Assembly: GCA_021805025.1 (NCBI GenBank)
Contig: JAJZGF010000009.1
Location: 1 to 64,000 of the forward strand
Direction: 5' to 3'
From: Acidobacteriota bacterium
Lineage (GTDB): Bacteria; Acidobacteriota; Terriglobia; Terriglobales; Acidobacteriaceae
DNA: 64,000 bases
Part shown: positions 7,658 to 64,000 of the stretch, piece after piece
Numbering within the stretch: position 1 is the first letter of the stretch
Layout: every line of letters starts with the position of its first letter
Made by a program: the position numbers and the translations under genes
The notes under the pieces: model-generated
Databases searched by the model: none
Told to the model about the DNA's origin: nothing
What the model saw: the letters and a program-made list of their open reading frames with translations, nothing else

Positions 7658-8878
7658 CTACTGCCCATGCATTGGGTCGTCCATCGAGGACAGCTGATTT
7701 TGCGCCTGCTGACGCGCCCGCAGCTTGAGATAGGCGAAGGCGCATAAGGTCGAAATCCAGCGCTGATTCCATAGGAGTAATCGGTACGTCCTATGGAAGC
7801 CGGTGGCCCACTTCAGCTTATAGGATTCCTCTCCGCTCAGAAAATCGTACTCAGTGAAGCCGCGAGAAAATCCAAAATCGATAAAGGCGGGAAGGAGCAT
7901 GGTGCCTGGAGACAAGCGCGCAAATTCGTGGTCGTATGCGCCTTGATAGCTCCAGAGTTTCCTGCCGCAACGAAAAACGAGCTCCCAGCCGAGCAATCGC
8001 TCGCGCATCTCCATCACGCCGACGGCAAGCCATCCGCGCTGCCCCAGCGTGCTGAACAGGGATGAAAATGCTTCCGGGTAGCGGCCGAGGAATGGAGAGG
8101 TCAACTTGCCGCCAACGCGCTTCTGCGCCTCAATGGAAATCATCTTCTGGAGCAACCCGGGCTCCTCATGCGGCTGCTCGACAATACGCACACGCAAACC
8201 CTCTGCGGCCATTCCTTCCAGGCGGGATCGCATCCTTCGGAAGGTGCTGCGCGTTCGACTTGACCTGCGATCCAGTATCTCCGAGAATGGGCCGTCGATC
8301 GTCATATACGGGCATTGCACTCTCTCTGAAAAAAGACGATGCGCCAAACCGGCAAGCCGCAAAGCGCCCTCGATCCGCCTTATCCCCTCCGGCGTGGCAT
8401 GTAATTGCCTGAGATCAACAATGTCTCACTCCTTGTTTCTCCGCGCCAGAAAATCCATGACAGTCCGCGTTTGGTCGGCCGGTTCTGCTCCAAGGACAAG
8501 CTCGTTATAGTCTGCGTAATGTGTCACGAACTCCAACTTGCATACGCGCAAGCCGAATTGGGAGGAAACTACGCGTATGAACGGAGCGATGCCTGTAACT
8601 TCTCCGTCCTGCCGCAGGACGAGCACGTAGGGCTGAAAGCGCTGGCGCTGATCCTTGTTTATGTATTGCAAGGTCCAGATCCGGAACCAGGCAAATGTAG
8701 TGAACACATTCGGGAAAGCGGCGGCTTCGCTGAGCCGGTTCCAGTCGGCCTCAATCCCGAGAAGCTCCGCTTCGGACTCTTAGGTCTGGATGGAATAGGG
8801 AACAGCAGCCTTGCCTCCGAAGGAATCGGAGGTCGGACAGGCATGTCTCTCAGAACCGTCAGGCTGCATGTGCATCAT
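7658..8878 (-). pseudogene. Broken CelD/FemAB-like GNAT acyltransferase (two in-frame stops)
   Basis: One reading frame encodes a BioF2/CelD-type acyltransferase of the GNAT/FemAB superfamily but is interrupted twice. From an ATG at 8878 it runs to AAVPYSIQT and then TAA (8780-8782). It continues ESEAELLGIEADWNRL and FTTFAWFRIW to ARRNKE, then TGA (8426-8428). It continues DIVDLRQLHATPEG through the acyltransferase fold (RTRSTFRRMRSRLE, YDFLSGEESYKLKWA) to 7658. The TGA falls where relatives typically have Trp before DVLDLR, suggesting TGG to TGA. The last 234 codons form the longest open piece and could restart from TTG at 8362. Relatives modify exopolysaccharide or lipid with acyl or aminoacyl groups. 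It is co-oriented with other glycan genes. Confidence 0.75.
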
Positions 8879-8988
8879 TTCCTGTGATGAACCCCGGCGA
8901 AAGAAGCCGGGAGCGGCGCAAGCTGTTCTGTTATCCACTCCAAACGCGGCCTTAATGCGCCTGGCCAGTCTTCGTAATAGTTCCCGCG

Positions 8989-9183
8989 AGGTTGGATCAA
9001 AGCCCAATCCAACTCTAAAGCCGTCTGCCTGGAACGTACCGTGATATCTCGCAAGGTAAGGAAGTACAGTAGCTCGCGATGCCGCCGGAGTTCTCTCAGA
9101 CGAAGGCCCCAGGAGGACTTTGCGCCCCGGATCATCACGCTGGCGGCGGAGCCCACATGCTGCGATTGTGATGAAGATGTCAT
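8989..9183 (-). pseudogene. Truncated ABC-2 polysaccharide export permease (N-terminal remnant)
   Basis: From ATG 9183 the frame encodes a stretch typical of the cytoplasmic N-terminus of Wzm-type O-antigen/teichoic-acid ABC permeases: LRLRELRRHRELLYFLTLRD, then ITVRSRQTALELDWALIQP, compare FLTWRDIxVRYKQTxLGxxWAxLQP. After about residue 65 the similarity stops and the frame runs into unrelated sequence to 8875, with none of the six membrane helices. This is the relic of a deleted permease gene in the same orientation as the glycan cluster. No ATP-binding partner gene is seen in the window. Confidence 0.65.
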
Positions 9184-9860
9184 GCTTGACTTGTTGTGAC
9201 GAGTTATCTAGACGGAGTTCCGGTACAGGATAGCAGGGAGGACATCGCCGGCAACCATGCGGGCTCGGTCGCGGCAGGCGTTCCAGTTGGAGCTGTCGCT
9301 ACTTTAGCGCCTAGCCGAGTTTGCATGGTGTCTCCAGCGATCATTGCGAGTTTGCGGTTCTGACAGGCACTGCCCGCTGCGCGACGTGGCGGCTCTTTCC
9401 CCCGGCGGTAAAAGTTCGCACTCCTGTTGAAGAGTATGCACGATGATCGGCAGGCTGGACTCGCGGAGGACGTTGAAACGGTCAAAGGCCAAAGGCTGCT
9501 CGTTGATGCCGTGACGGGCAATCTTCCTCCGGTGAAATCTGGACCGGCTCGCGCCCAAAACGGTCTTCATCCATGCAAAGGAAGTCGAGGATTGGAGTAT
9601 GGATTGGGTAAGCCCGGCACAAGGCAAAATATGCAAGCTGGCCCGCTGAAGAGTCTTCAGCACAGCAGCAGGATGCTTAATGGGAATGAAAAACCGACGG
9701 GCAGAAGTTGTGGCGGGTCATGTCAGGCGCCGCGAGCGAGGAAGAATGCATCTGGAGTGCTCCGGGCCAGCAACGGGTAGGGGAAAGAATCCATGCGACT
9801 GGTGCTCCCGTCAAGAGTCCGCTCGCTCATCGATACGCCAGGCCGCCACCAGCCATCAGA
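9184..9860. other. Decayed region inside the glycan cluster, no gene called
   Basis: These 677 nt hold only short frames on both strands, none with a recognisable domain. Since it sits between a truncated permease and a stop-interrupted glycosyltransferase in the same orientation, it is probably the residue of one or more deleted genes of the cluster. Confidence 0.4.
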
Positions 9861-10934
9861 CTATTCGGTGCGAGGTGCGCCGCGATCCGGAAGTCTGTCG
9901 TAGAGTTCAACAGTTCGACGCGTCATGAGATCGGTGGAAAAGTGCGCCTGGGCACGTCTCCATCCTTCGGCTCCCATCAGCGCCCACCGTTGACGATCGT
10001 TCGCTGCCTCCGTGATGCACCGAACCAGCGCGTCCGTATCACCGGGAGGAAAAAGCCTTCCGGTCATTCCATCGACGACCAGCTCGCAAAGACCGCCGAC
10101 CCGGCTTGCCACAACCGGTCGGCCCGCCGCCATCGCTTCGAGCGCGGAAAGTCCGAAGCCTTCTTCAAGAGACGGCATCACCAGAAGATCCCACGATGCC
10201 AAGAGCTTCTTCACGTCTGCGTCCCAGCCAAGAAAGCGCACCCGCTCGCTCACACCAAGGCTCAAGACGAGCGCGCGCAGCGAAGATTCCGATGGGCCGG
10301 AGCCGGCAATCTCGGCCTGAACATCAATACCTTTCGCCGCAAGGAGGGCAGTGGCTTCGATCAGGGCTTCGATATTCTTCAGCGGAACCAGCCGGGCGAG
10401 AGCTCCCAGCCTGAGCGGCCCGGCCTGGGGCGCAGCAGCGGGGGGTTGGGAACCCGTCTCGATGCCCGCATAGATGACTTCAGCCCGATATCCACGGACG
10501 CAATCGGCTACGGCCTGGGAACACGCGATGACGGCATCCGGCGCGGGAAAGTTCAACTCTGATGCCTGTACCCCATTGGCCTCGTTGATCCGGCCGTGCA
10601 AATGCTGCACCACAGCGCCCACGCCGGCAAAGCGGCATACCGCCCGAACCACCCCTCCCCCGTGGTGCAGGTGGGCGATCTCCGCTCGATGCGTCCGCAG
10701 CCATCGTCACATTTGCCATGCGCCTGACAGATCGCCGCGCTTGCCTGTCCATGCAATCGAACTCGACGGAAAGCCCGCATCCTTCACGGTCGTCATCAAC
10801 GGCCCGTCTTCAAGGAAAAGCACAGAAATCTCGTATCCGAAGGGGCGGAGATGTTTCGCCAGTCCCATGACGATTCGGCAGATTCCGGTACATTCCGGGA
10901 GGGCGCTTTTCACAACATGGACGCAGGTTCGCAA
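9861..10934 (-). pseudogene. GT4 glycosyltransferase interrupted by one in-frame TGA
   Basis: One frame encodes a complete GT-B family 4 glycosyltransferase with a single TGA at 10707-10709. The likely start is TTG 10934, preceded by GGAGGGG at six bases. The N-terminal acceptor domain reads VHVVKSALPECTGICRIVMG to GDLSGAWQM, then stop, then RWLRTHRAEIAHLHHGGG, all in the same frame. The C-terminal donor domain is intact: LGALARLVPLKNIEALIEA, EIAGSGP, FLGWDADV and the EEGFGLSALEAMAAGRPVV nucleotide-sugar site (EX7E). A CGA (Arg) to TGA transition is the simplest cause. The two halves separately (75 and 263 codons) are unlikely to work. Confidence 0.75.
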
Positions 10935-11376
10935 TCGAGTCCCCTCCGCAAACGGGGTGCAGGTGTCATCGGACGCAGCCTCTCTGCTGGCCGTCTACCT
11001 TCCCCGATAGCAGTGAAAAGGCACACAGGCATTCCCTGTGGCGCTCGCTCTCGCGGTTGCTGCGTCGATGGCAGCCGCACGGGATGGGTTCGCCCCATCC
11101 TTCGTGCCGCGTTGGGCGTCAGTGTAGCAGACGGCGCGATTGCCAATTCAAAACACCCGAATCCGCGTGGAGGCTGATCTCTCCGGGCAAGGTCGCGCGC
11201 TGGGCGCCGCCCGATCTCCGCGCTTAGTCGGAGCAGGCGCGATACCAGCCCACGGACCGCTTCCTGGACTCCATTGAGAAACCTGGAACATGCCAGGCGG
11301 CCAAGCCTGCAGATCGCAAATGCTGCTCGACTGCTCAAGCGCAGACCGCGCATTCCCGCCGAGCCTGCCCTTCGCT
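10935..11376. other. Intergenic region, nothing identified
   Basis: This 442-nt stretch lies between the start of the broken GT4 gene and the end of the MFS gene. Only shadow frames are present, with no clear promoter or terminator. A short CACAGG/CCTGTG hairpin near 11025-11041 has no U-tract. Confidence 0.4.
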
Positions 11377-12585
11377 TCACTCCTGCTGCAGGCGCGCCAG
11401 CACCACGACAATCGCCAGCGCGGCGAGCACGCAGCCCAGCGCGAACAGGAAAGCGCTGGGGTAGCCGTACATGCCGATGAGCGTGCCCGCTGTGGGGCCA
11501 ACGAGGAAGAATGAGACGTCTGAAAAACCCGTATACACGCCCAGCGCGGTGCCGCGATTGAACTCCGGCACGCGCTTCACCGCCTCCACGCCCAGCGAGG
11601 GGAAGACCAGCGAGAAGCCGAACCCCGTCAACGCCGCCGCGGCAAAGGCCGTCCACGGCGAGCCGGCTCGCCACAGCAGCAGCACGCCCGCGGATTCGAT
11701 CGACAGGCAGGTGATACCGACCGGAAAGCCGCCAAAACGGTTAATCGTATTGATAAATGCGAGTCGGGCCACGATGAAGGCGATCCCGAACGAGGTCAGA
11801 CATAATGCTGCGCCGTCCCAATGGCGGTTGGCGTAGAACAGCGTGACGAATGTGGCCAGTACGCTGTAGCCTACGCCGCCCAGCGCCAGCCCTATGCCGT
11901 GAGGCGTCACGCGCACTAGCACATCGCGGAAGGGCAGGTGCTCGCCCGGTGTTACCGGTACCGGCGCTTTGAGGCTGGCCATCAGCAGGCTCGCCGCGCA
12001 CACGGCGATCGTCAACACTCCGATTGCGCCAAGGCCCCAGTGTTGCTCCAGCACCACGCCCAGCGGAGCCCCCAGCGCCAGCGCGCCATAAGTGCTGATG
12101 CCGTTAAAGGAGATGACCTTGGCGGTGTGCTCCGGCCCCGCGCTCGTGATGCCCCACAACGTTGCGCCCGTTGAGCCCAGGCTTTCACCGGCGCCCAGTG
12201 CCAACCGGCTCGCCAGCAGGATGCCGAGGCTGAGCCAGGAGGGTTGGCGATGCAGCAGTGCCGCCAGCAATAGCAGCCCGCCGCTCAGTGTGCAGGCAGC
12301 CATGCCCCACTGCACTGAGACCTTTGCACCCGAGTGGTCTGAGATGCGCCCCGCCCATGGCCGGCTGATGAACGTGGCAATGTATTGCACGCTGATGACC
12401 AGGCCCGCCAGAGCGGCGCTGTAGCCCAGCCGCAGATGCACATAGGGCGGCAGTATCGCCAGCGGCAGGCCGATGGACAGATAGCAAATGAAGGTAAACG
12501 AGGTGAAGGTCAGAATCTGCCGAGTGCTGCCGTTCGGCGCGTCCAGCGCCGTGGCGGATGAGCTGTCGATGGCAGAATTCTCCAT
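11377..12585 (-). CDS. MFS transporter (YfcJ/YhhS-like)
   Basis: A 402-residue major facilitator superfamily protein with about 12 hydrophobic helices. The loop 2-3 motif appears as GRISDHSGAKV after SRPWA, and ASRLALGAGESLGSTGA fits the helix 4-5 region. The C-terminal half (FIVARLAFINTINRFGGFPVG) resembles the YfcJ/YhhS group, usually described as sugar or drug efflux carriers; the substrate cannot be read from the sequence. The frame extends upstream to 12744, but ATG 12585 (MENSAIDSSSAT) directly precedes the first helix and was chosen. It is in the inner membrane. The same strand continues from the AI-2E gene about 200 nt upstream. Confidence 0.85.
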   Translation of the reverse strand: MENSAIDSSSATALDAPNGSTRQILTFTSFTFICYLSIGLPLAILPPYVHLRLGYSAALAGLVISVQYIATFISRPWAGRISDHSGAKVSVQWGMAACTLSGGLLLLAALLHRQPSWLSLGILLASRLALGAGESLGSTGATLWGITSAGPEHTAKVISFNGISTYGALALGAPLGVVLEQHWGLGAIGVLTIAVCAASLLMASLKAPVPVTPGEHLPFRDVLVRVTPHGIGLALGGVGYSVLATFVTLFYANRHWDGAALCLTSFGIAFIVARLAFINTINRFGGFPVGITCLSIESAGVLLLWRAGSPWTAFAAAALTGFGFSLVFPSLGVEAVKRVPEFNRGTALGVYTGFSDVSFFLVGPTAGTLIGMYGYPSAFLFALGCVLAALAIVVVLARLQQE

Positions 12586-12784
12586 GCGTGAGGTTACGGA
12601 ACCGGCAGAGATGTGCGGGCACCTCCAGTATACCGGAGGCATTGTGCACGCGAGAGAGGCGGAACGTCTCGCATCGGAGACGGGACGCAGCGCAAATGGC
12701 CGCCGCGGGTTTGCGGACTTCCATTCCGGTTCGCGCCCAATCATCGACCGGCTTTTGCCGGGGTGAACCCGTCAGCGCGCGGGG

Positions 12785-13867
12785 TCACTCACTGCCGGCG
12801 GCCACCGCAGGCGCGTGGGAGACGCCCGCGCCGCGGTCTCGCCAGATCTGCAGCAGCGTCTCGGTGACGCTGAAAGCAATCGGCCCCAGAATCAGGCCAC
12901 TCACTCCAAACAGCACCACCCCGCCCAGCATCGCCAGGAAGATGGGCGCAGAGTGCAGTTGCAGCCGCGACCCCACCAGAATTGGATAGAGCACGTTGTC
13001 CAGCGTGCTGATCACCAGAGACCCTGCGCCGAGCAGAATCAACGCCTGCGCCCAATGGTGAATCGCAAACAGATACCCCACCACGGGTAGCCACACCACA
13101 AACGCACCTACGGCTGGAACCAGCGCAAACAGCATCGTCAAGGCGCCCAGCAGCGTGGCCGCGCCCACGCCCAGCAGCGCATAGGCAATCCCCGCCAGCA
13201 ACCCCTGCAGCGCCGCCACGGCAAAGCGGCCCAGCACCAGCGCCCGCACCGCCAGTTCCACGCGCGTCAGCAGAAAGTCCGTTTCATCCGCGCGTAGAGG
13301 AATCAAGCGCCGGGCCGCCGCCAGGGCCGCATCGCTGTCGCGATAGAGAAAAAACAGCAGGAACAGCATCACGATCACCTGCGTGAAGGCGGAGATCGAC
13401 TTGCCCAGCACCAACGCCACCTGCCCCGCCACCTCGCCTGCGGCTCTCTGCGTGGCTGCGTCCATGTCCACGTTGTCCATCACGTATTTGAGCGCGCCGT
13501 TCAGCGCAGGATGGCTGGCCACAAACAGGCGCAGGTTTTGCTCCGATGCGCCGCTCTGGGCGTTCCGCATCAGTACCAGCACATGGTTGCCCGCGCTCAC
13601 CATTACCATCATGGAAGGCACCACAATGCTGAGTGACACCAGAATCAGCGTTGCCGTCGCCGCCAGCGTGGGCCGCCGCAGCCGCGCCGCAATCCAGCGA
13701 TACACCGGCTGCGTCACAATTGCCAGAACAACCGCCCACGTCATGCCCGCAACAAACGGCGCAACGATCCACAGGCATAGGCCGACTGCGCCAACCGAAA
13801 CCAGGAAGAGCGTCAAGCCGCCCCAGTCAGTTCTGCCCTGCCGCGCTTCCGTGCCGTTCTCGTTCAT
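12785..13867 (-). CDS. AI-2E family transporter (PerM/TqsA type)
   Basis: A 360-residue integral membrane protein of the AI-2E transporter family. Paired helices at the N-terminus (LFLVSVGAVGLCLWIVAPFV) are followed by a soluble middle segment (about residues 80-150) and a C-terminal helical block with the family hallmark around LLAGIAYALLGVGAATLLGALTM and the LFALVPAVGAFVVWLPVVGY region. Family members are proposed sodium/proton antiporters or exporters of small signals; the cargo is not predictable. It diverges from mtaB with about 250 nt between the starts. Confidence 0.88.
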   Translation of the reverse strand: MNENGTEARQGRTDWGGLTLFLVSVGAVGLCLWIVAPFVAGMTWAVVLAIVTQPVYRWIAARLRRPTLAATATLILVSLSIVVPSMMVMVSAGNHVLVLMRNAQSGASEQNLRLFVASHPALNGALKYVMDNVDMDAATQRAAGEVAGQVALVLGKSISAFTQVIVMLFLLFFLYRDSDAALAAARRLIPLRADETDFLLTRVELAVRALVLGRFAVAALQGLLAGIAYALLGVGAATLLGALTMLFALVPAVGAFVVWLPVVGYLFAIHHWAQALILLGAGSLVISTLDNVLYPILVGSRLQLHSAPIFLAMLGGVVLFGVSGLILGPIAFSVTETLLQIWRDRGAGVSHAPAVAAGSE

Positions 13868-14124
13868 TCTTGCTCTCCCGCGAGCCTTACGCTGCGCGGC
13901 TCTGGCTTCGAGTCTATGGCATTTCCCGGAAGGGTGTGGCTCTTTTCAGGCCATCCAGGGTCACCGCGTCCCATTGGCCGCCTCGATTCTTCGGTTGGCG
14001 CCCTCGGTCTGCAGCACGCCAAAAATCTTTGAGCTTCAGCCCATGCACCTCCGCGTGCTGGACACGCGTTCCGCGCAACTTTACCCTGAAACAGACACGC
14101 CCTTTCATTCGACGGAGCCGCACG

Positions 14125-15564
14125 GTGCCCTTTCACATCGAAAATTTCGGTTGCCGTGCCGCGCGGGCAGACGCCGAGGCTATCGGCGCAGCGCTCGTCG
14201 CCGCAGGGCAAGGCCTGCACCAGGCCGCGCAGGCCGATGTCGTGGTGGTGAACACCTGCAGCGTTACCGCGGAGGCCGACCGCGCTGCGCGCGCCTACAT
14301 CCGCCGCGCTCACCGGCTCAATCCCGAGGCGCGCATCGTTGTCACCGGTTGCTATGCGCAGCGTGCCCCGGAAGAACTGGCCGCGCTGCCCGGCGTTGCC
14401 GCCGTCATCGGCAACAGCCACAAGGCGCTCGCGCCCGCCGTTGCCCTCGATCTGCTCGTACCTCTGTCGCCGCTGGTCCAGATTCACCCAGCGCAAGCCG
14501 CTACCGGTCCGCCGCCGATGGTCCTTGCCGACGACCGCTTCGCGCATTCCTTCCTTGAAGAGACGCCGCTCCATCCCGGCGCGCAAACCCGGCCCAATCT
14601 CAAGATTCAGGAGGGCTGCGGCAACCGCTGCTCCTTCTGCGTCATTCCGCAGACGCGCGGCCCTTCGCACAGCCTGCCCGTCGAGCGCATTCTCGCCCAG
14701 GTGCGCGGATTTGTCACCGCCGGGGGCAGGGAGCTGGTCTTATCCGGCATCAATCTCGGCCGCTGGGGCCGCGACCTTGCGCCATCCGATGGCCATCCGC
14801 AGGGTGCGCTGCCCAGCCTCGTGCGGCACATCATCCAACAGACCGATCTGCCCCTGCTGCGTCTCAGCTCCATCGAGCCCATGGACTGGGACGGCGAACT
14901 TATCGCGCTGCTCGTCGAATACGGTGGCAGTCGCCTCGCCCGCCACGCCCATCTGCCGCTGCAGTCCGGCTCCGATGCCGTGCTGCGCCGCATGCACCGC
15001 CGCTATCGTCCCTGGCACTACGCTGAAAAGGTTGACGCCCTGCTCCGCGCCGTCGGCTCGGCGCTTACGCTCGGCGCAGATGTCATGGCCGGCTTCCCCG
15101 GCGAAACCGACCGCGAGTTCGAGGAGACACTCGACTTCATCCGCGCGCTTCCTTTCGGCTACCTCCACCTCTTCCCGTTTTCTCCGCGCCCCAACACCCG
15201 CGCCTGGGCGCTCCACGCCGAGCAGCCGGTCCCTCCCGCGGCCGTGGACGAGCGCATGGCGGCTCTTCGTTCTCTGGCGGCGCAAAAGAGTGAAACGCAC
15301 CAAAGGTCCTTCATCGGGAGCACGCTTGAGGCCCTCACCCTGCACACGCCGGCGGCGGTTGCGGCACGAGGTTGCACGGCGGCGATGACTGAGAACTTCT
15401 TGCCCATCGAGCTTGCCGCCGCGCTGCCCGCCAACCGGAGCGTGCCCGTTCGCGTGACGGGGCTGCATGCCGAGGGCGTGCTCGAAGGTGCTGTCGGCAC
15501 ACGCCTTCACGGCCGCCCGCACCTGCACACATCCGCCGCCTGTGAGATAGAACTACCCGCCTGA
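14125..15564 (+). CDS. mtaB: tRNA (N6-threonylcarbamoyladenosine(37)) methylthiotransferase MtaB
   Basis: A radical SAM methylthiotransferase, 479 residues from GTG 14125; the frame is open about 490 nt further upstream, but the family N-terminus is PFHIENFGCRAA. The first Fe-S cluster cysteines lie in FGCRAARAD, NTCSVTAEAD and TGCYAQR, typical of the N-terminal UPF0004 domain. The radical SAM cluster is CGNRCSFC followed by VIPQTRGPSHS, and the C-terminus is a TRAM-like region. The order of motifs and the NTCSVT signature fit MtaB, which makes ms2t6A at position 37 of ANN-decoding tRNAs, better than MiaB. It is followed by the infC promoter. Confidence 0.85.
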   Translation: MPFHIENFGCRAARADAEAIGAALVAAGQGLHQAAQADVVVVNTCSVTAEADRAARAYIRRAHRLNPEARIVVTGCYAQRAPEELAALPGVAAVIGNSHKALAPAVALDLLVPLSPLVQIHPAQAATGPPPMVLADDRFAHSFLEETPLHPGAQTRPNLKIQEGCGNRCSFCVIPQTRGPSHSLPVERILAQVRGFVTAGGRELVLSGINLGRWGRDLAPSDGHPQGALPSLVRHIIQQTDLPLLRLSSIEPMDWDGELIALLVEYGGSRLARHAHLPLQSGSDAVLRRMHRRYRPWHYAEKVDALLRAVGSALTLGADVMAGFPGETDREFEETLDFIRALPFGYLHLFPFSPRPNTRAWALHAEQPVPPAAVDERMAALRSLAAQKSETHQRSFIGSTLEALTLHTPAAVAARGCTAAMTENFLPIELAAALPANRSVPVRVTGLHAEGVLEGAVGTRLHGRPHLHTSAACEIELPA

Positions 15565-22901: not shown

Positions 22902-24113
22902 ATGAGCAAGTTGGAGATTCACTCTGCCGGATCTGCCACGCGGCAATCTCTTCCACGCTGCCATGCAGGATTCCGCTCCTCCTTCACTCCCATACAAAGC
23001 GCAGGCATCCGTCTTGCCATCCTGGGAACGATGGTTGCCGCAGCCGTGACCTTGCTCTCCGGCTGCCAGCGTGTTTCATTTGACCCGCGGCCCACCGCCG
23101 ATATCGCCCCGGAACGACTCTTCATGTTTACCGCGGTGCAGGCCCCCGCTCCCGCAACGGGCCTGAGCGCAATGCGGGTGGATCTCGGCCGTCGCCTGTT
23201 TTACGATACACACCTCTCGGTGAACAACTCGGTCTCCTGTGACACCTGCCACAAGCTCACGGCGTATGGCGTCGATCCCGGCAAGTCCGTTTCCACCGGC
23301 CACGACAAGAAGCCCGGAGGGCGAAACTCGCCTACGGTCTACAACGCAGGGCTCCAATTTGTGCAGTTCTGGGATGGCCGTGCCGCCACCCTCGCCGAGC
23401 AGGCCGCCGGTCCCATGATGAATCCGGTAGAGATGGGCATGCCCAGCCCTGAAGCCGTAGTGGCCTATCTGCACTCCACCCCGGATTACAAGAAGCAGTT
23501 CCAGCAGGCCTATCCAGGAGCCAGGGATCCCGTCGTGATGGACAACGTGACCGACGCAATCGCGGACTTCGAGTCCGGCCTGATCACGCCCGCTCGCTGG
23601 GATCAGTACCTGCAGGGCGACACAAATGCGCTTTCAAATGAAGAGAAGAGAGGCCTGCGGGTCTTTCTGCGCTCCGGCTGCGCCTCCTGCCACGCGGGCA
23701 AAGGGCTCGGCGGCAATTCCTACCAGAAACTGGGCGCATACCGCGATTGGCCCGACCGGACTACTGACCTTGGGCGCATGGCGGTCACCCACAATCCTGC
23801 CGACTTGCTCTACTTCAAGGTTCCTCTGCTGCGCAATGTCACCGAAACGGGTCCGTGGTTCCACGATGGAAGGGTCAAGACCATCGACGAAGCCGTCCGG
23901 CTCATGGAGCGTTACCAGACGGGCCGCCGCCTCTCTGAAAACGACGTGCGCTCCATTGTGGCCTTCCTGGGTTCGCTCAAAGGCGAAATTCCCCAGCAGT
24001 ACATCCAGCCCCCGTCCGCCAAAGCGCCACCGATCAGAACGGCTTTGACGCCGGGCACTTCGAGGCAACAGCTCGCGCTCGTTGACCTCAATCCATCGAA
24101 GGAGGGACAGTAG
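22902..24113 (+). CDS. Di-haem cytochrome c peroxidase / MauG family lipoprotein
   Basis: A 403-residue protein with two CxxCH motifs, CDTCH and CASCH, and the CCP/MauG layout: GRRLFYDTHLSVNNSVSC, NSPTVYNAG, FWDGRAATL, then CASCHAGKGLGG, FKVPLLRNV and WFHDGRVKTIDEAVRLM. The N-terminus holds a hydrophobic stretch ending LLSGC, a lipobox, so it is probably a membrane-anchored periplasmic lipoprotein. The start ATG follows AAGGGGG. Such enzymes reduce hydrogen peroxide or oxidise partner proteins. The haem-binding protein gene follows after 2 nt. Confidence 0.92.
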   Translation: MSKLEIHSAGSATRQSLPRCHAGFRSSFTPIQSAGIRLAILGTMVAAAVTLLSGCQRVSFDPRPTADIAPERLFMFTAVQAPAPATGLSAMRVDLGRRLFYDTHLSVNNSVSCDTCHKLTAYGVDPGKSVSTGHDKKPGGRNSPTVYNAGLQFVQFWDGRAATLAEQAAGPMMNPVEMGMPSPEAVVAYLHSTPDYKKQFQQAYPGARDPVVMDNVTDAIADFESGLITPARWDQYLQGDTNALSNEEKRGLRVFLRSGCASCHAGKGLGGNSYQKLGAYRDWPDRTTDLGRMAVTHNPADLLYFKVPLLRNVTETGPWFHDGRVKTIDEAVRLMERYQTGRRLSENDVRSIVAFLGSLKGEIPQQYIQPPSAKAPPIRTALTPGTSRQQLALVDLNPSKEGQ

Positions 24114-24115
24114 CC

Positions 24116-24589
24116 ATGCGTCGCATCCTTTGGATTACCGGAGCACTCCTCGTTCTGTTTCTTCTCGTGATGCAGACACGCCGCCCCAACTTTGACTTGC
24201 CGAAGGTCCACGCAGCGGCCGGCTTCGATGCAACCATGCATCCCAGCCAGCAGATCAGCGACACGCTGCATCAGTCCTGCTACAGTTGCCACTCGGCACA
24301 AGCTGAAATCCCCTGGTACGGCCACGTCTGGCCTGCATCGCACCTTCTCCAGAAAGACGTCCGCCGCGGTCGTGCCCGTCTCGACTTTTCCAATTGGAGT
24401 AACCTCAGCCCGGAGATGTCCCGCATCCGCCTGCTCGACGCCTGCCAGATGATGCGAGAGTCCAAGATGCCGCTCTGGTACTACCGCCCCCTGCATCCGG
24501 GTGCCACTCTGCAGCCGGAACAGGTGGACGCCTTCTGCAACTGGGCGCAGTCGCTGCCCGCCGCCGCGCAGACAGCGAGCCTGCGCTAG
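24116..24589 (+). CDS. Haem-binding domain protein (single c haem), membrane anchored
   Basis: A 157-residue protein with an N-terminal membrane anchor (residues 4-20) and one c-haem site, CYSCHSAQ, then PWYGHVWPASHLL; this pattern is that of the short haem-binding-domain family found beside cytochrome c peroxidases. It starts 2 nt after the peroxidase gene, so the two are coupled. A role as electron donor or acceptor for the peroxidase is an inference from the pairing. Confidence 0.88.
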   Translation: MRRILWITGALLVLFLLVMQTRRPNFDLPKVHAAAGFDATMHPSQQISDTLHQSCYSCHSAQAEIPWYGHVWPASHLLQKDVRRGRARLDFSNWSNLSPEMSRIRLLDACQMMRESKMPLWYYRPLHPGATLQPEQVDAFCNWAQSLPAAAQTASLR

Positions 24590-55404: not shown

Positions 55405-55758
55405 TCAGTGATAGAAGAGGGGAATCCACCACGGGCTTGCCATCAGGCCGAGCAGCAGCGGGGTAACGATCCAGAAGATAAGTCGCTGCATTTTGGGCAC
55501 ACCATCCGCAGCACAAGCTGCCTGTGCATCGCAGGCGGGCGCGACAAGGTAAAGCCTGCGGAAGGCAAGGCCGAGAAACAAAAGGCCCAGGACGATGAAC
55601 TCCGGCCGGTAGGGCTCCAGCGCCGTCAGGTGGGCGATCCACGCTCCGCCGATGCCCAGGCTGAGCAGGAGCAGCGGCCCAATGCAACAGGCTGAGGCGC
55701 CGATGCTGGCCAGACCCCCTGCAATCAAGGCAGTTTTCGAATTCAGGAATAGCCGCAT
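55405..55758 (-). CDS. merT: Mercuric-ion membrane transporter
   Basis: A 117-residue, three-helix inner-membrane protein. Helix 1 contains the vicinal pair in GASACCIGPLLLLSLG, and the cytoplasmic loop has CDAQAAC; both are the Hg(II) relay cysteines of MerT. In this family the periplasmic MerP donates the ion, which MerT moves inward to a reductase. It is transcribed from the MerR-controlled promoter at 55783-55814. Confidence 0.93.
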   Translation of the reverse strand: MRLFLNSKTALIAGGLASIGASACCIGPLLLLSLGIGGAWIAHLTALEPYRPEFIVLGLLFLGLAFRRLYLVAPACDAQAACAADGVPKMQRLIFWIVTPLLLGLMASPWWIPLFYH

Positions 55759-55782
55759 TGCAGAACTCGCCTTCGCAAGACC

Positions 55783-55814
55783 ACTATAAACTCCGTACGA
55801 TGGTACGGAGTCAA
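55783..55814 (-). promoter_or_regulatory. MerR operator-promoter (merT promoter)
   Basis: The palindrome ACTCCGTAC-GATG-GTACGGAGT (55790-55811) matches the mer operator. On the minus strand it lies in a promoter with -35 TTGACT (55814-55809) and -10 TTATAG or TATAGT (55789-55784 or 55788-55783), giving the stretched 19-20-nt spacer typical of MerR targets. MerR-Hg would twist this DNA to activate merT-merP-GDCCVxC. The operator also overlaps the merR start. Confidence 0.9.
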
Positions 55815-56224
55815 TGGGAAGTGAGATGAGCTACGGAATGACGATTGGATCCCTGGCAAAGGCCGCCGGAGTCAACGTGGAAACCATCCGCTATTATCAG
55901 CGGCGGGGCCTGCTGCAAGAGCCGCCGAAGCCGCCTGCCGGCTACCGCAGATATTCTCAGGAAACGCTGCATCAAGTGCGATTCATCAGAAAGGCTCAGG
56001 GCCTCGGATTCACTTTGGAGGAGATCAGCGGGCTTTTGCAGCTCGATGAAAGAAAGGCCTGCAAGGAGACGCGCGCAGCGGCCGCACAGAAGCTCGACCT
56101 GATCGAAAAGAAACTCTCCGAAATCTCACGCATCAGGAGGGCCTTGAAACGATTGATCCGTTCCTGCGATGCCCAGGTCGCAGGCGACCCTTGTCCGATG
56201 ATTCATCTCCTTAACCGGGGCTGA
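55814..56224 (+). CDS. merR: Mercury-responsive MerR regulator
   Basis: A 136-residue MerR. The winged-helix starts TIGSLAKAAGVNVETIRYYQRRGLL, followed by PPAGYRRYS; the dimerisation helix ends with Cys-containing segments. The three Hg-binding cysteines are in DERKACKETRAA, RSCDAQVAGDPCP, as in Tn501 MerR (positions about 82, 117 and 126). It diverges from merT with the operator between. Starts at 55814 or, with better GGAAGTGAG spacing, 55826; 55814 overlaps the -35 of the opposite promoter. Confidence 0.92.
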   Translation: MGSEMSYGMTIGSLAKAAGVNVETIRYYQRRGLLQEPPKPPAGYRRYSQETLHQVRFIRKAQGLGFTLEEISGLLQLDERKACKETRAAAAQKLDLIEKKLSEISRIRRALKRLIRSCDAQVAGDPCPMIHLLNRG

Positions 56225-61991: not shown

Positions 61992-64000
61992 TCACTGCCC
62001 GTTGGGGGATGCGGGCATCGAGCGAATGTACGCGACCAGCGCCTGCATATCAGGAGGACTCAGGTTGGTGAGCGGCATTCCGCCCTGCTGCATGCGCTTG
62101 CTGTGGTGGCGCAGCAGGTTCTCCAGCACGTCTGCCGGCAGCAGCGAGGCCGTACCTGCCAGCGGCGGCGCCGCAACGGTTCCATGCAGTCCGCCCACAC
62201 CGTGGCAGGTCTCGCACGTCAGGCGCTGGAAGATCTTGTGTCCACTCTCCGCCAGAGGGTTAAGAGGCGCGGGAGCCGCAGCAGGCGTTGCGGCTGTCAC
62301 AGGGGGCGCGCCTGTTTCGGGTGCGGTCGCCGGGGCGCCGCTGGGCGCTGTTCCCAAGTCGGCCTGTGCGGACGGCGCCGCGGCGGTTCCAGGCTCGAGG
62401 CTATCCAGATAAGCCACCAGTTGCGCCAGTTGCGGGTCCTTCAGCGTCACCATCGGCATGCCCCCCGCCTTCATCTTGCTGGTCGGGTGATGCAGCAGCC
62501 AAGGCAATTTGTCGCCGGGAAACTTCTTGCTGATGCTGATCAGCGACGGGGCAAACTGAGTTCCGTGCGCCGTTGGACCATGGCAGGCCGCGCAACCCTG
62601 CGAGAGGAACAGCGCGCGTCCTGGACTTGGCGGCACTGCGGCTGAAGCGGCGCCTGGGGATGCAGTGCCCGTCTGCGCGGTCGCTGCCGCACCGGAAGTC
62701 TCCGCGACCGCTGGAGCGACGCCCTGCGCCATCTCCGGATATTGCACGCTGCCGCCCTGATCCTGGACTGCCGGCGCAGGCTGTCCCTGGGCCTGCTGCT
62801 GCTGCGTCTGCGGCGCGTGCAGCGTCCGCAGATAGGCAATCAGCGCGTTGCGCTGCTCGTCGGAACCAAAGACCGGCGGCATTCCGCCTGCCTTCATCTT
62901 CGCATTGGGAGTGACAAGCAGTTGCGACAATTGCGCGTCGGAGACATGTGCGATCATCGGCGCCATCGCCGGGGCGCGCCCACCCGCGCCCGCCTGCCCA
63001 TGGCAGGCAAAGCAGCCACGCTCCTGGAAGAGTTGCTGCCCTTCCGCTGCCGCCGCGGACATTGGCGCCGCCGCGGCTGCGGCACCCGAACCACCAGCCG
63101 CACTGGCTTCCCCCGGACGGCCTGTTGCTGCGGGCGCGGGAGAAGCGCCTGACATCGCCTGCACGTTTGCCGCACTGGTTCCAATCACGCCCAGGTAAGC
63201 CAACAGAGCAGACATATCGCTGGGCGAGGCATCCACGGCCGGCATGTGCCCGGCGCGCATCGCCGGATTCGGGTTGTGCAACAGAGCAATCAGCTGCGGC
63301 TCGGGAAACTTCGTTGTAACGCCCTTCAAGCTGGGCGCCACGGTCGTGCCTAGACCGACTTCTCCGTGGCAGCCCGAGCATCCATGTTCCTGAAAGATTC
63401 CTCTGCCGCGCGCAACCAGCGGACTCACAGGCCCAATCGGCAGCGCCAACGGCCCGGTTCCGCCGGGTGACTCCATATACGGCTCGAACGGCGCAGCCGT
63501 ATACTCGGCTTCCTGTCTGGCCTGGAGCGCGAGCTGTGCTGCCGTCGTCGGGTCGTCTGCATCGTCCAGATGGCTCCTCATGCCCAGATAGATCGTGCCC
63601 GTCAGCACAATCGCCACCGCGAGTACCGGAATCGGCCTGCGCCACGGTCGGCGCTCCAGCCGCCGGTCAAGAAACGGCAGCAGGAAGAACAGCGCCGCCA
63701 GCAGGCCCGGCGCCACCACCACCGCGAAGACCACCTTGGGCCCTTCCCAGAACTTCAGCCACTCAAACATCGGCAGGTAATACCACTCCGGCCGAGGCAG
63801 AAAGTGCGTGTCCGCAGGGTTGGCAATCGGTCCCAGGCCCTCTGGATGGAAGTATGCGAGGAACCCAAGCCCAACCATCAGCAGCATGGCAAAAGCCATG
63901 TCCATCAGCACCTGGCGCGGATAGAAACCCTCCGGCTTCAGCTTCGGATGGATCGGATCCTCGTTGATCGGTCCTGCCGCTCCAGCCTTGCGGAATAGAA
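61992..64000 (-). CDS. Cytochrome b C-terminal domain fused to four c-haem domains (5' partial)
   Basis: The frame is open to the window edge, so the N-terminus lies beyond 64000. It starts inside the cytochrome b C-terminal (subunit IV-like) region: DEDPIHPK-like EDPIHPKLKPEGFYPRQ, a helix, then NPADTHFLPRPEWYYLPMFEWLKFWEG and two more helices. Four haem c domains follow with motifs CSGCH (63366-63380), CFACH, CAACH and CETCH. Each is followed by a Met-ligand segment of the form MxxGxMP (PAMRAGHMP, AKMKAGGMP, SKMKAGGMP, KRMQQGGMP). Ala/Pro/Gln linkers join them. It should be part of a bc1/b6f-type complex carrying its own electron outlet. The Rieske and cytochrome b N-terminal genes would lie beyond the window. 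Confidence 0.9.
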   Translation of the reverse strand, partial: LFRKAGAAGPINEDPIHPKLKPEGFYPRQVLMDMAFAMLLMVGLGFLAYFHPEGLGPIANPADTHFLPRPEWYYLPMFEWLKFWEGPKVVFAVVVAPGLLAALFFLLPFLDRRLERRPWRRPIPVLAVAIVLTGTIYLGMRSHLDDADDPTTAAQLALQARQEAEYTAAPFEPYMESPGGTGPLALPIGPVSPLVARGRGIFQEHGCSGCHGEVGLGTTVAPSLKGVTTKFPEPQLIALLHNPNPAMRAGHMPAVDASPSDMSALLAYLGVIGTSAANVQAMSGASPAPAATGRPGEASAAGGSGAAAAAAPMSAAAAEGQQLFQERGCFACHGQAGAGGRAPAMAPMIAHVSDAQLSQLLVTPNAKMKAGGMPPVFGSDEQRNALIAYLRTLHAPQTQQQQAQGQPAPAVQDQGGSVQYPEMAQGVAPAVAETSGAAATAQTGTASPGAASAAVPPSPGRALFLSQGCAACHGPTAHGTQFAPSLISISKKFPGDKLPWLLHHPTSKMKAGGMPMVTLKDPQLAQLVAYLDSLEPGTAAAPSAQADLGTAPSGAPATAPETGAPPVTAATPAAAPAPLNPLAESGHKIFQRLTCETCHGVGGLHGTVAAPPLAGTASLLPADVLENLLRHHSKRMQQGGMPLTNLSPPDMQALVAYIRSMPASPNGQ

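Follow-up and report, generated by a model that had tools for sequence, protein, structure and literature searches.

The 64,000-nucleotide stretch of DNA analyzed here (the window) covers positions 1 to 64,000 of the forward strand of contig JAJZGF010000009.1 from an Acidobacteriota bacterium (GenBank assembly GCA_021805025.1), and at its end lies a gene encoding a cytochrome b fused to a tail of four class I cytochrome c domains. The gene is a single open reading frame (ORF) on the minus strand with four CxxCH motifs; it stops at positions 61992 to 61994 and runs past the end of the window into the remainder of the contig (65,400 bases in total). The full gene has a GTG start at contig position 64661, outside the window, and encodes 889 amino acids (aa) in as many codons. 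The window holds its 3' three-quarters (positions 61992 to 64000; the last 668 codons, i.e., residues 222 to 889), identified from the frame and from PF00033, which matches the N-terminal part of cytochrome b at contig positions 63981 to 64541 (E = 2e-49). The full 889-aa protein matches the Pfam models Cytochrome_B and Cytochrom_B_C and has four Cytochrom_C stretches. The part inside the window begins with the C-terminal part of cytochrome b, which includes the PEWY motif (residues 222 to 389; positions 63495 to 64000; Pfam Cytochrom_B_C and helices in a structural model). The tail consists of domain 1 (residues 412 to 503; 63153 to 63428; CSGCH and MRAGHMP), linker 1 (504 to 531; 63069 to 63152), domain 2 (532 to 616; 62814 to 63068; CFACH and MKAGGMP), linker 2 (617 to 676; 62634 to 62813), domain 3 (677 to 758; 62388 to 62633; CAACH and MKAGGMP), linker 3 (759 to 796; 62274 to 62387), and domain 4 (797 to 886; 62004 to 62273; CETCH and MQQGGMP), all on the minus strand. 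Domains 1 to 3 were delimited by Pfam, motifs, and the model, and domain 4 by motifs, the model, and an alignment. Linker 1 was recognized from its low model confidence and low sequence identity (see below), and linkers 2 and 3 from the model and the alignment.

A scan of species genomes yielded 95 relatives, the best 80 of which were kept as named loci, so that distant one-haem relatives are undersampled. According to their record titles, 77 of these loci belong to Acidobacteriota and 3 to Bacteroidota (L084 and L109) or Planctomycetota (L099). A multi-haem tail with a complete C terminus was found in 43 loci (37 with four haems, 4 with five, 1 with three, and 1 with two), including L077, which lacks its 5' end. 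The others are 7 multi-haem loci cut by a contig end, 29 one-haem loci, and L099, whose sequence breaks off ahead of the first haem. The carriers include an isolate, Acidipila rosea DSM 103428 (L049; record NZ_SMGK01000001). An earlier note on this DNA, made from its letters alone, had described one chain joining cytochrome b to four tandem haem c domains. The Pfam domains, the motifs, and the 43 complete multi-haem tails bear this out, and the same domain count, which the note proposed to look for in other acidobacteria, recurs in the 37 four-haem tails among the 80 named loci. In a tree of cytochrome b (81 rows), the multi-haem proteins fall within one clade of 53 (support, 100/99). Two members of this clade have short tails, namely L070 with two haems and L078 (strain AB60) with one; together with L072 they form a clade of three (100/99). 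The note had held that homologs with only one haem c domain would speak against the four-haem form. Such homologs do exist (29 of the 80 loci), but the four-haem form stands, because 28 of them lie outside the multi-haem clade and a single one (L078) is nested within it. The note had also called fusions with one or two haem c domains known in bc complexes; this was checked as far as the one-haem form, which these 29 loci of the family confirm.

The four CxxCH motifs lie at residues 428, 550, 690, and 816, each followed 39 to 41 residues later by MxxGxMP, so that both motifs are present in all four domains, as previously described. In the 43 complete multi-haem tails, a Met occurs 36 to 45 residues after CxxCH in 173 of 173 domains. 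With CxxCH and a Met as the sixth ligand in each, the four are class I cytochrome c domains that are predicted to bind haem. The three linkers consist to 80 to 82% of Ala, Pro, Gln, Ser, Thr, and Gly, in agreement with the Ala/Pro-rich linkers of the note. Among 33 aligned four-haem rows, the domains are 54 to 69% identical on average and of near-constant length (domain 4, 66 to 90 residues), whereas the linkers are 22 to 25% identical (22% for linker 1) and of varying length; within the tail, conservation is highest in domain 4 (69% mean pairwise identity). An AlphaFold2 model of the fusion, built without haems from an alignment of 36 sequences, shows four tail domains with block means of the predicted local distance difference test (pLDDT) score mostly between 70 and 92, separated by stretches of 28, 60, and 38 residues with pLDDT below 50. 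Since the model is weak overall (mean pLDDT, 59.6; predicted template modeling score, 0.30) and its cytochrome b part is poor, only the domain/linker pattern of the tail was taken from it. The conservation pattern suggests folded beads on flexible strings, the last bead being specialized, and the four domains together with about 126 linker residues could be long enough to bridge the periplasm.

The origin of the row was addressed with a tree of 123 domains from 41 hand-chosen proteins (only 80 columns), in which domains group by their position in the tail with few exceptions; the domain 1 group is without strong support (86/89). This clustering by position indicates that the row of four arose from old duplications, consistent with the duplication that the earlier note had read from the internal similarity of the domains. 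Copying is still ongoing. The extra copy in five-haem tails is akin to domain 2, and the third domain of L065 and L066 groups with domain 2. In the five-haem tails of L073 and L075, the neighboring domains 2 and 3 are nearly identical, which represents a recent duplication within the row.

In an alignment of 36 hand-chosen fusion proteins, the b-haem ligands H103/H117 and H204/H219 are invariant (36/36), with 13 and 14 residues between the members of each pair. A 14-residue spacing of the second histidine pair is a mark of b6-type cytochrome b, and the closest solved chains are cytochrome b6. PEWY is present in 35 of the 36 rows and PDWY in the remaining one. The adjacent Rieske gene matches PF00355 (E = 3e-12) and encodes the motif CxHxGC...CxCH. 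The four histidines, their spacing, PEWY, and the adjacent Rieske gene together assign the fusion to a predicted Rieske/cytochrome b complex. Cys35 of cytochrome b6 binds haem ci. At the aligned position, read by eye, Val or Ile occurs in 35 rows and a gap in 1; judged by this alignment, the fusion lacks the haem-ci Cys of cytochrome b6f sensu stricto. Plasmid records contained only distant cytochrome b (41 records, none spanning 80% of the query).

The earlier note had pointed upstream for the Rieske gene and the N-terminal part of cytochrome b. Both were found there, together with a gene for a Cyc2-type cytochrome-porin, and the unit thus comprises this cytochrome-porin, the Rieske protein, and the b6-type cytochrome b with four class I cytochrome c domains. 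The porin gene product has about 440 residues and carries AVPSFARQTGLSCNVCHSNPPEL near its N terminus. The Cyc2 signature is AXPXFAR[Q/K][T/Y] before CXXCH, a motif described as unique to Cyc2, with PXL after it (Keffer et al. 2021, PMC8406198, excerpt). The strict motif AxPxFAR[QK][TY] was found in 46 of the 50 multi-haem loci, and PxL after CxxCH is visible in the printed porin sequences (read, uncounted). A model of the porin (439 residues; mean pLDDT, 72.6) has 17 strand elements (16 when a pair of short neighbors is merged), and Foldseek matched it to outer-membrane barrels (best E = 1.9e-5). The gene had no match to any Pfam or NCBIfam model. Its signature motif, its length of at least 365 residues, and its modeled 16-strand porin barrel are those expected of a Cyc2 protein, making it a predicted member of this family. 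Clustering of the neighbors of the 50 multi-haem loci showed that the three genes of the unit alone are widespread (46, 45, and 42 loci), the next cluster being present in 8. In L079, the Cyc2-type gene lies directly downstream of the fusion.

The genome from which the window derives contains the porin gene of the window's unit at the end of a separate contig (C14), which shares a 161-base overlap with one mismatch with the end of the window's contig. The unit occurs a second time on C112, where the contig ends behind the second haem of the tail. A third unit (G000:C192, locus L008, positions 8114 to 14392) has a Cyc2-like gene (ALPSYARQTGLACSGCH) near a complex of Rieske, b6, and subunit IV genes, and a separate 685-aa protein with 8 CxxCH motifs and c7-like and class I cytochrome c stretches.

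To compare the surroundings of long and short tails, we counted genes within 2.2 kb upstream on the same strand at 49 multi-haem and 27 one-haem loci; L077, L087, and L096 (too little upstream sequence) and L099 were left out. A Cyc2-type gene was found upstream of 47 of the 49 multi-haem loci versus 7 of the 27 one-haem loci, and a separate small cytochrome c gene upstream of none of the 49 versus 25 of the 27. Pfam checks of the separate cytochromes c covered L100 and, outside that count, L078; that of L085 is a 263-aa ORF with two CxxCH motifs. When all DNA examined per locus is considered, 48 of the 50 multi-haem loci and 11 of the 29 one-haem loci contain a Cyc2-like motif (46 and 2, respectively, in its strict form). 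L101 and L104 have, upstream of their one-haem complexes, ORFs (698 and 675 aa, respectively) that each contain three CxxCH motifs, the first of which are ANPAWSRKYNAQCTLCH and GEPSWARKFNASCTLCH; these possibly represent another type of cytochrome-porin.

A survey of 200 family genomes, selected from a larger set for a completeness of at least 90%, identified 26 with a member of the fusion clade (E ≤ 1e-200) and 46 with a Cyc2 homolog (E ≤ 1e-100). In 24 genomes with long-tail frames (736 to 1,018 aa), an operon-type Cyc2 gene lies beside the fusion on the same contig (24/24); the window's own genome enters this count via its C112 copy, as the window's copy spans two contigs. Two genomes with shorter frames, G123 (L070; 689 aa, two haems) and G008 (strain AB60, L078; 544 aa, one haem), which were matched to these loci by contig number and coordinates, have no Cyc2 at E ≤ 1e-100. 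Both are nested in the multi-haem clade (100/99), which suggests that their tails were shortened secondarily. The 1.5 kb behind their stop codons contain no remnant haem motif, so these tails do not look freshly broken. Beside its complex, AB60 has a DmsE-family decahaem cytochrome, an MtrB/PioB barrel, and a separate cytochrome c.

Away from the fusion operon, L121, L122, and L123 (genomes G008, G123, and G237) encode a second, distant type of Cyc2-like protein, in which A[IL]PAFARKY precedes CxxCH and whose frames span 460 to 516 aa. The idea that the short-tailed genomes have lost Cyc2 altogether is ruled out by these distant genes; the operon type alone is missing.

Taken together, these patterns suggest that in some Acidobacteriota a four-haem tail encoded beside an outer-membrane Cyc2-type cytochrome would form a built-in wire across the cell envelope. 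The electron wire leading from the complex, as imagined in the earlier note, thereby gains backing from the adjacent Cyc2-type porin, the lack of a local separate cytochrome c, and the shorter tails without operon-type Cyc2. We consider it fairly probable that the tail takes the place of a soluble carrier and tethers the Rieske/cytochrome b complex covalently towards the outer-membrane Cyc2. In the proposed path, domain 1 would play the role of cytochrome c1/f in electron exchange with the Rieske cluster, the next two domains would relay the electrons through tethered contacts, and domain 4, the most conserved, would dock on the Cyc2-type porin from the periplasmic side. The porin in turn would exchange electrons with iron outside the cell. 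Such a chain could run without a soluble periplasmic carrier. In most of the layouts described here, a cytochrome c relay of some kind lies between the complex and the outer-membrane conduit.

Several observations weigh against this interpretation. The haem region of the porin model is largely below a pLDDT of 50, the template modeling scores of its Foldseek matches are at most 0.45 by query among the matches listed, and no distances are obtainable from the models, which lack haems and have a poor cytochrome b part. Haem attachment, contact with Cyc2, and iron as the partner are all predicted from sequence. Near L070, both a Cyc2 gene and a separate cytochrome c are missing, and the absence of a separate cytochrome c from the multi-haem loci is local only (same strand, 2.2 kb). 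At E ≤ 0.001, a single distant Cyc2-like protein is encoded on another contig in each of the two short-tailed genomes (E = 4e-10 and 1e-12, N-terminal part only), which slightly lowers our confidence; the long-tailed control G237 carries such a gene besides its operon-type Cyc2. Of the 46 Cyc2-positive genomes, 22 have no fusion-clade match; together with the 11 of 29 one-haem loci with a Cyc2-like gene, this indicates that Cyc2 does not need a long tail. Because the multi-haem loci form one clade, their contrast with the one-haem loci comes close to a single event, and the short-tailed pair, falling within one three-member clade with L072, may also represent one event. The Fisher p-values of the upstream contrast ignore kinship and overstate the evidence, and the 200-genome survey overlaps the 80 named loci.

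The unit resembles several known systems. With the Cyc2 iron oxidase pathway (Cyc2, rusticyanin, CycA1, and bc1 of Acidithiobacillus ferrooxidans, and neutrophilic homologs), it shares a monohaem outer-membrane-type cytochrome-porin with AxPxFAR[QK][TY]...CxxCH...PxL and the linkage of a cytochrome-porin to a bc complex (PMC8790237, excerpt), but here the soluble carriers are seemingly replaced by the cytochrome b tail, which is encoded in one unit with the porin. The one-haem cytochrome b/c fusions (Acidobacteriota and others; 29 of the 80 loci) have a homologous cytochrome b, the first cytochrome c domain, and usually an adjacent Rieske gene; they differ from the four-haem form by their single domain and the separate small cytochrome c upstream. 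Tandem class I cytochrome c domains attached to a bc complex are also found in the actinobacterial QcrB/QcrC (bcc) complex. The NCBIfam model for dihaem QcrC scores on two stretches of the fusion below its cutoff (67.5 versus 200 bits), and QcrC chains are weak Foldseek matches among those listed (E = 0.17 and worse). QcrC is a separate subunit with two haems that serves an oxidase, whereas the four haem c domains described here are part of the cytochrome b chain. The MtrAB/PioAB conduits likewise pass electrons across the outer membrane, by means of a decahaem cytochrome and a large barrel; AB60 has one beside its complex, and there the cytochrome b tail has a single haem. Cyc2-type homologs in Acidobacteria are already known, and cytochrome b fusions with one haem occur frequently among these loci; a network study lists Acidobacteria among the putative donors of Leptospirillum Cyc572 (PMC10654088, excerpt). 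No description of a tetrahaem cytochrome b fusion or of its pairing with Cyc2 was found in the open-access literature (titles and the beginnings of abstracts, among the matches listed), which does not prove its absence from print.

As to the direction of flow, quinol oxidation with electrons passing outward to Fe(III) appears to be the likeliest main mode, although we give it only an even chance. It is favored by the lack of a RuBisCO match, a chemo-organotrophic carrier, acidobacterial Fe(III) reducers, and the high Fe(III)/Fe(II) potential at low pH. RuBisCO had no match in the window's own genome (96% complete; other carbon fixation routes were not searched). Acidipila rosea is described as a chemo-organotroph (in a title in the reference list of PMC6435174), and acidobacteria are named among Fe(III) reducers (PMC8790237, excerpt). 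The same excerpt reports that Cyc2 has been proposed as the final Fe(III) reductase of A. ferrooxidans, the mechanism in acidophiles being little known. The Fe(III)/Fe(II) potential is 770 mV at pH 2 (PMC8406198, excerpt), high enough for Fe(III) to accept electrons from a bc complex at low pH.

The main rival on direction is Fe(II) oxidation, in which Cyc2 would oxidize Fe(II) outside the cell and the tail would feed the complex, for uphill quinone reduction or towards an oxidase, as in A. ferrooxidans minus rusticyanin. Fe(II) oxidation is the proven Cyc2 activity, verified for members of the family (PMC8406198, excerpt), and this weighs against outward flow, as does a table in which Acidipila rosea is listed as acidophilic, aerobic, and without iron activity (PMC6435174, excerpt); in the same source, the nearest named relative of a clone from acid mine drainage is Acidipila rosea, at 96%. 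Inward flow nevertheless seems somewhat unlikely to us: besides the lack of a RuBisCO match, there is no oxidase gene among the shared neighbors, and the downhill branch to oxygen in A. ferrooxidans bypasses the bc complex (PMC8790237, excerpt). Use in both directions is possible.

A different view of the tail is that the fusion is a polyprotein, cut after synthesis into domains that act as separate soluble carriers. The cytochrome b/c1 precursor FbcH of Bradyrhizobium undergoes post-translational cleavage, and the long, variable, Ala/Pro-rich linkers and the lack of a separate cytochrome c gene beside the operon would fit. The domains, however, keep their order and position-specific sequence, with the last one most conserved; since this agrees better with a fixed layout, while remaining compatible with cleavage, we regard the polyprotein as improbable. 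Slightly less probable still is that the tail serves a terminal oxidase or stores electrons and that Cyc2 is a neighbor for unrelated reasons. In other bacteria, bc complexes have cytochrome c domains that serve oxidases, the window's own genome has five COX1 matches, and in the short-tailed genomes a distant Cyc2-like gene is retained at another site. Against this, no oxidase gene is common to the 50 multi-haem loci, whose sole common feature is the three-gene unit, and operon-type Cyc2 is adjacent in all 24 long-tailed genomes. A COX1 signature was absent from all 50 multi-haem and all 29 one-haem loci, but this test is weak, as the signature also missed three of four control COX1 loci; the neighbor clustering is the better evidence on an oxidase link. 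Finally, an artifact, i.e., separate genes joined by mis-assembly (named in the earlier note as a way to refute its reading) or a frame without a product, can be dismissed: the window's contig does stop about 0.7 kb past the start of the fusion gene, within the upstream porin gene, but its end overlaps C14, where the porin gene is complete, the unit is uninterrupted on a single contig in the nearest relative (L030), the linkers drift while the domains stay conserved, and the fusion recurs across many assemblies (43 C-terminally complete multi-haem loci), including the isolate record.

Returning to the tethered tail, its most far-reaching form is that a bc-type complex would span the periplasm with a covalently attached tail of four or five haems, would hand electrons straight to a Cyc2-type porin without a soluble carrier, and would act as an energy-conserving Fe(III) reductase of acidophilic heterotrophs, with tail length and conduit type having changed together in evolution. 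We put this forward tentatively, as a possibility that is more likely to fail than to hold in full. The electron path of iron reduction in extreme acidophiles is described as little known in a review (PMC8790237, excerpt). For acidophilic heterotrophs, in which electron traffic between quinone pool and extracellular iron is little known, the compact three-gene unit predicts an entire path, and the cultured carrier Acidipila rosea DSM 103428 makes this path testable. Tails with 1, 2, 3, 4, and 5 haems provide a natural series for how the periplasm gets spanned.

Elsewhere in the window, positions 22902 to 24589 (plus strand) encode a di-haem cytochrome c peroxidase of the MauG type followed by a Haem_bd protein. 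Positions 55405 to 56224 contain a MerT-type gene for mercuric transport and, in divergent orientation, a MerR-type regulator, which together represent a likely mercury response locus.

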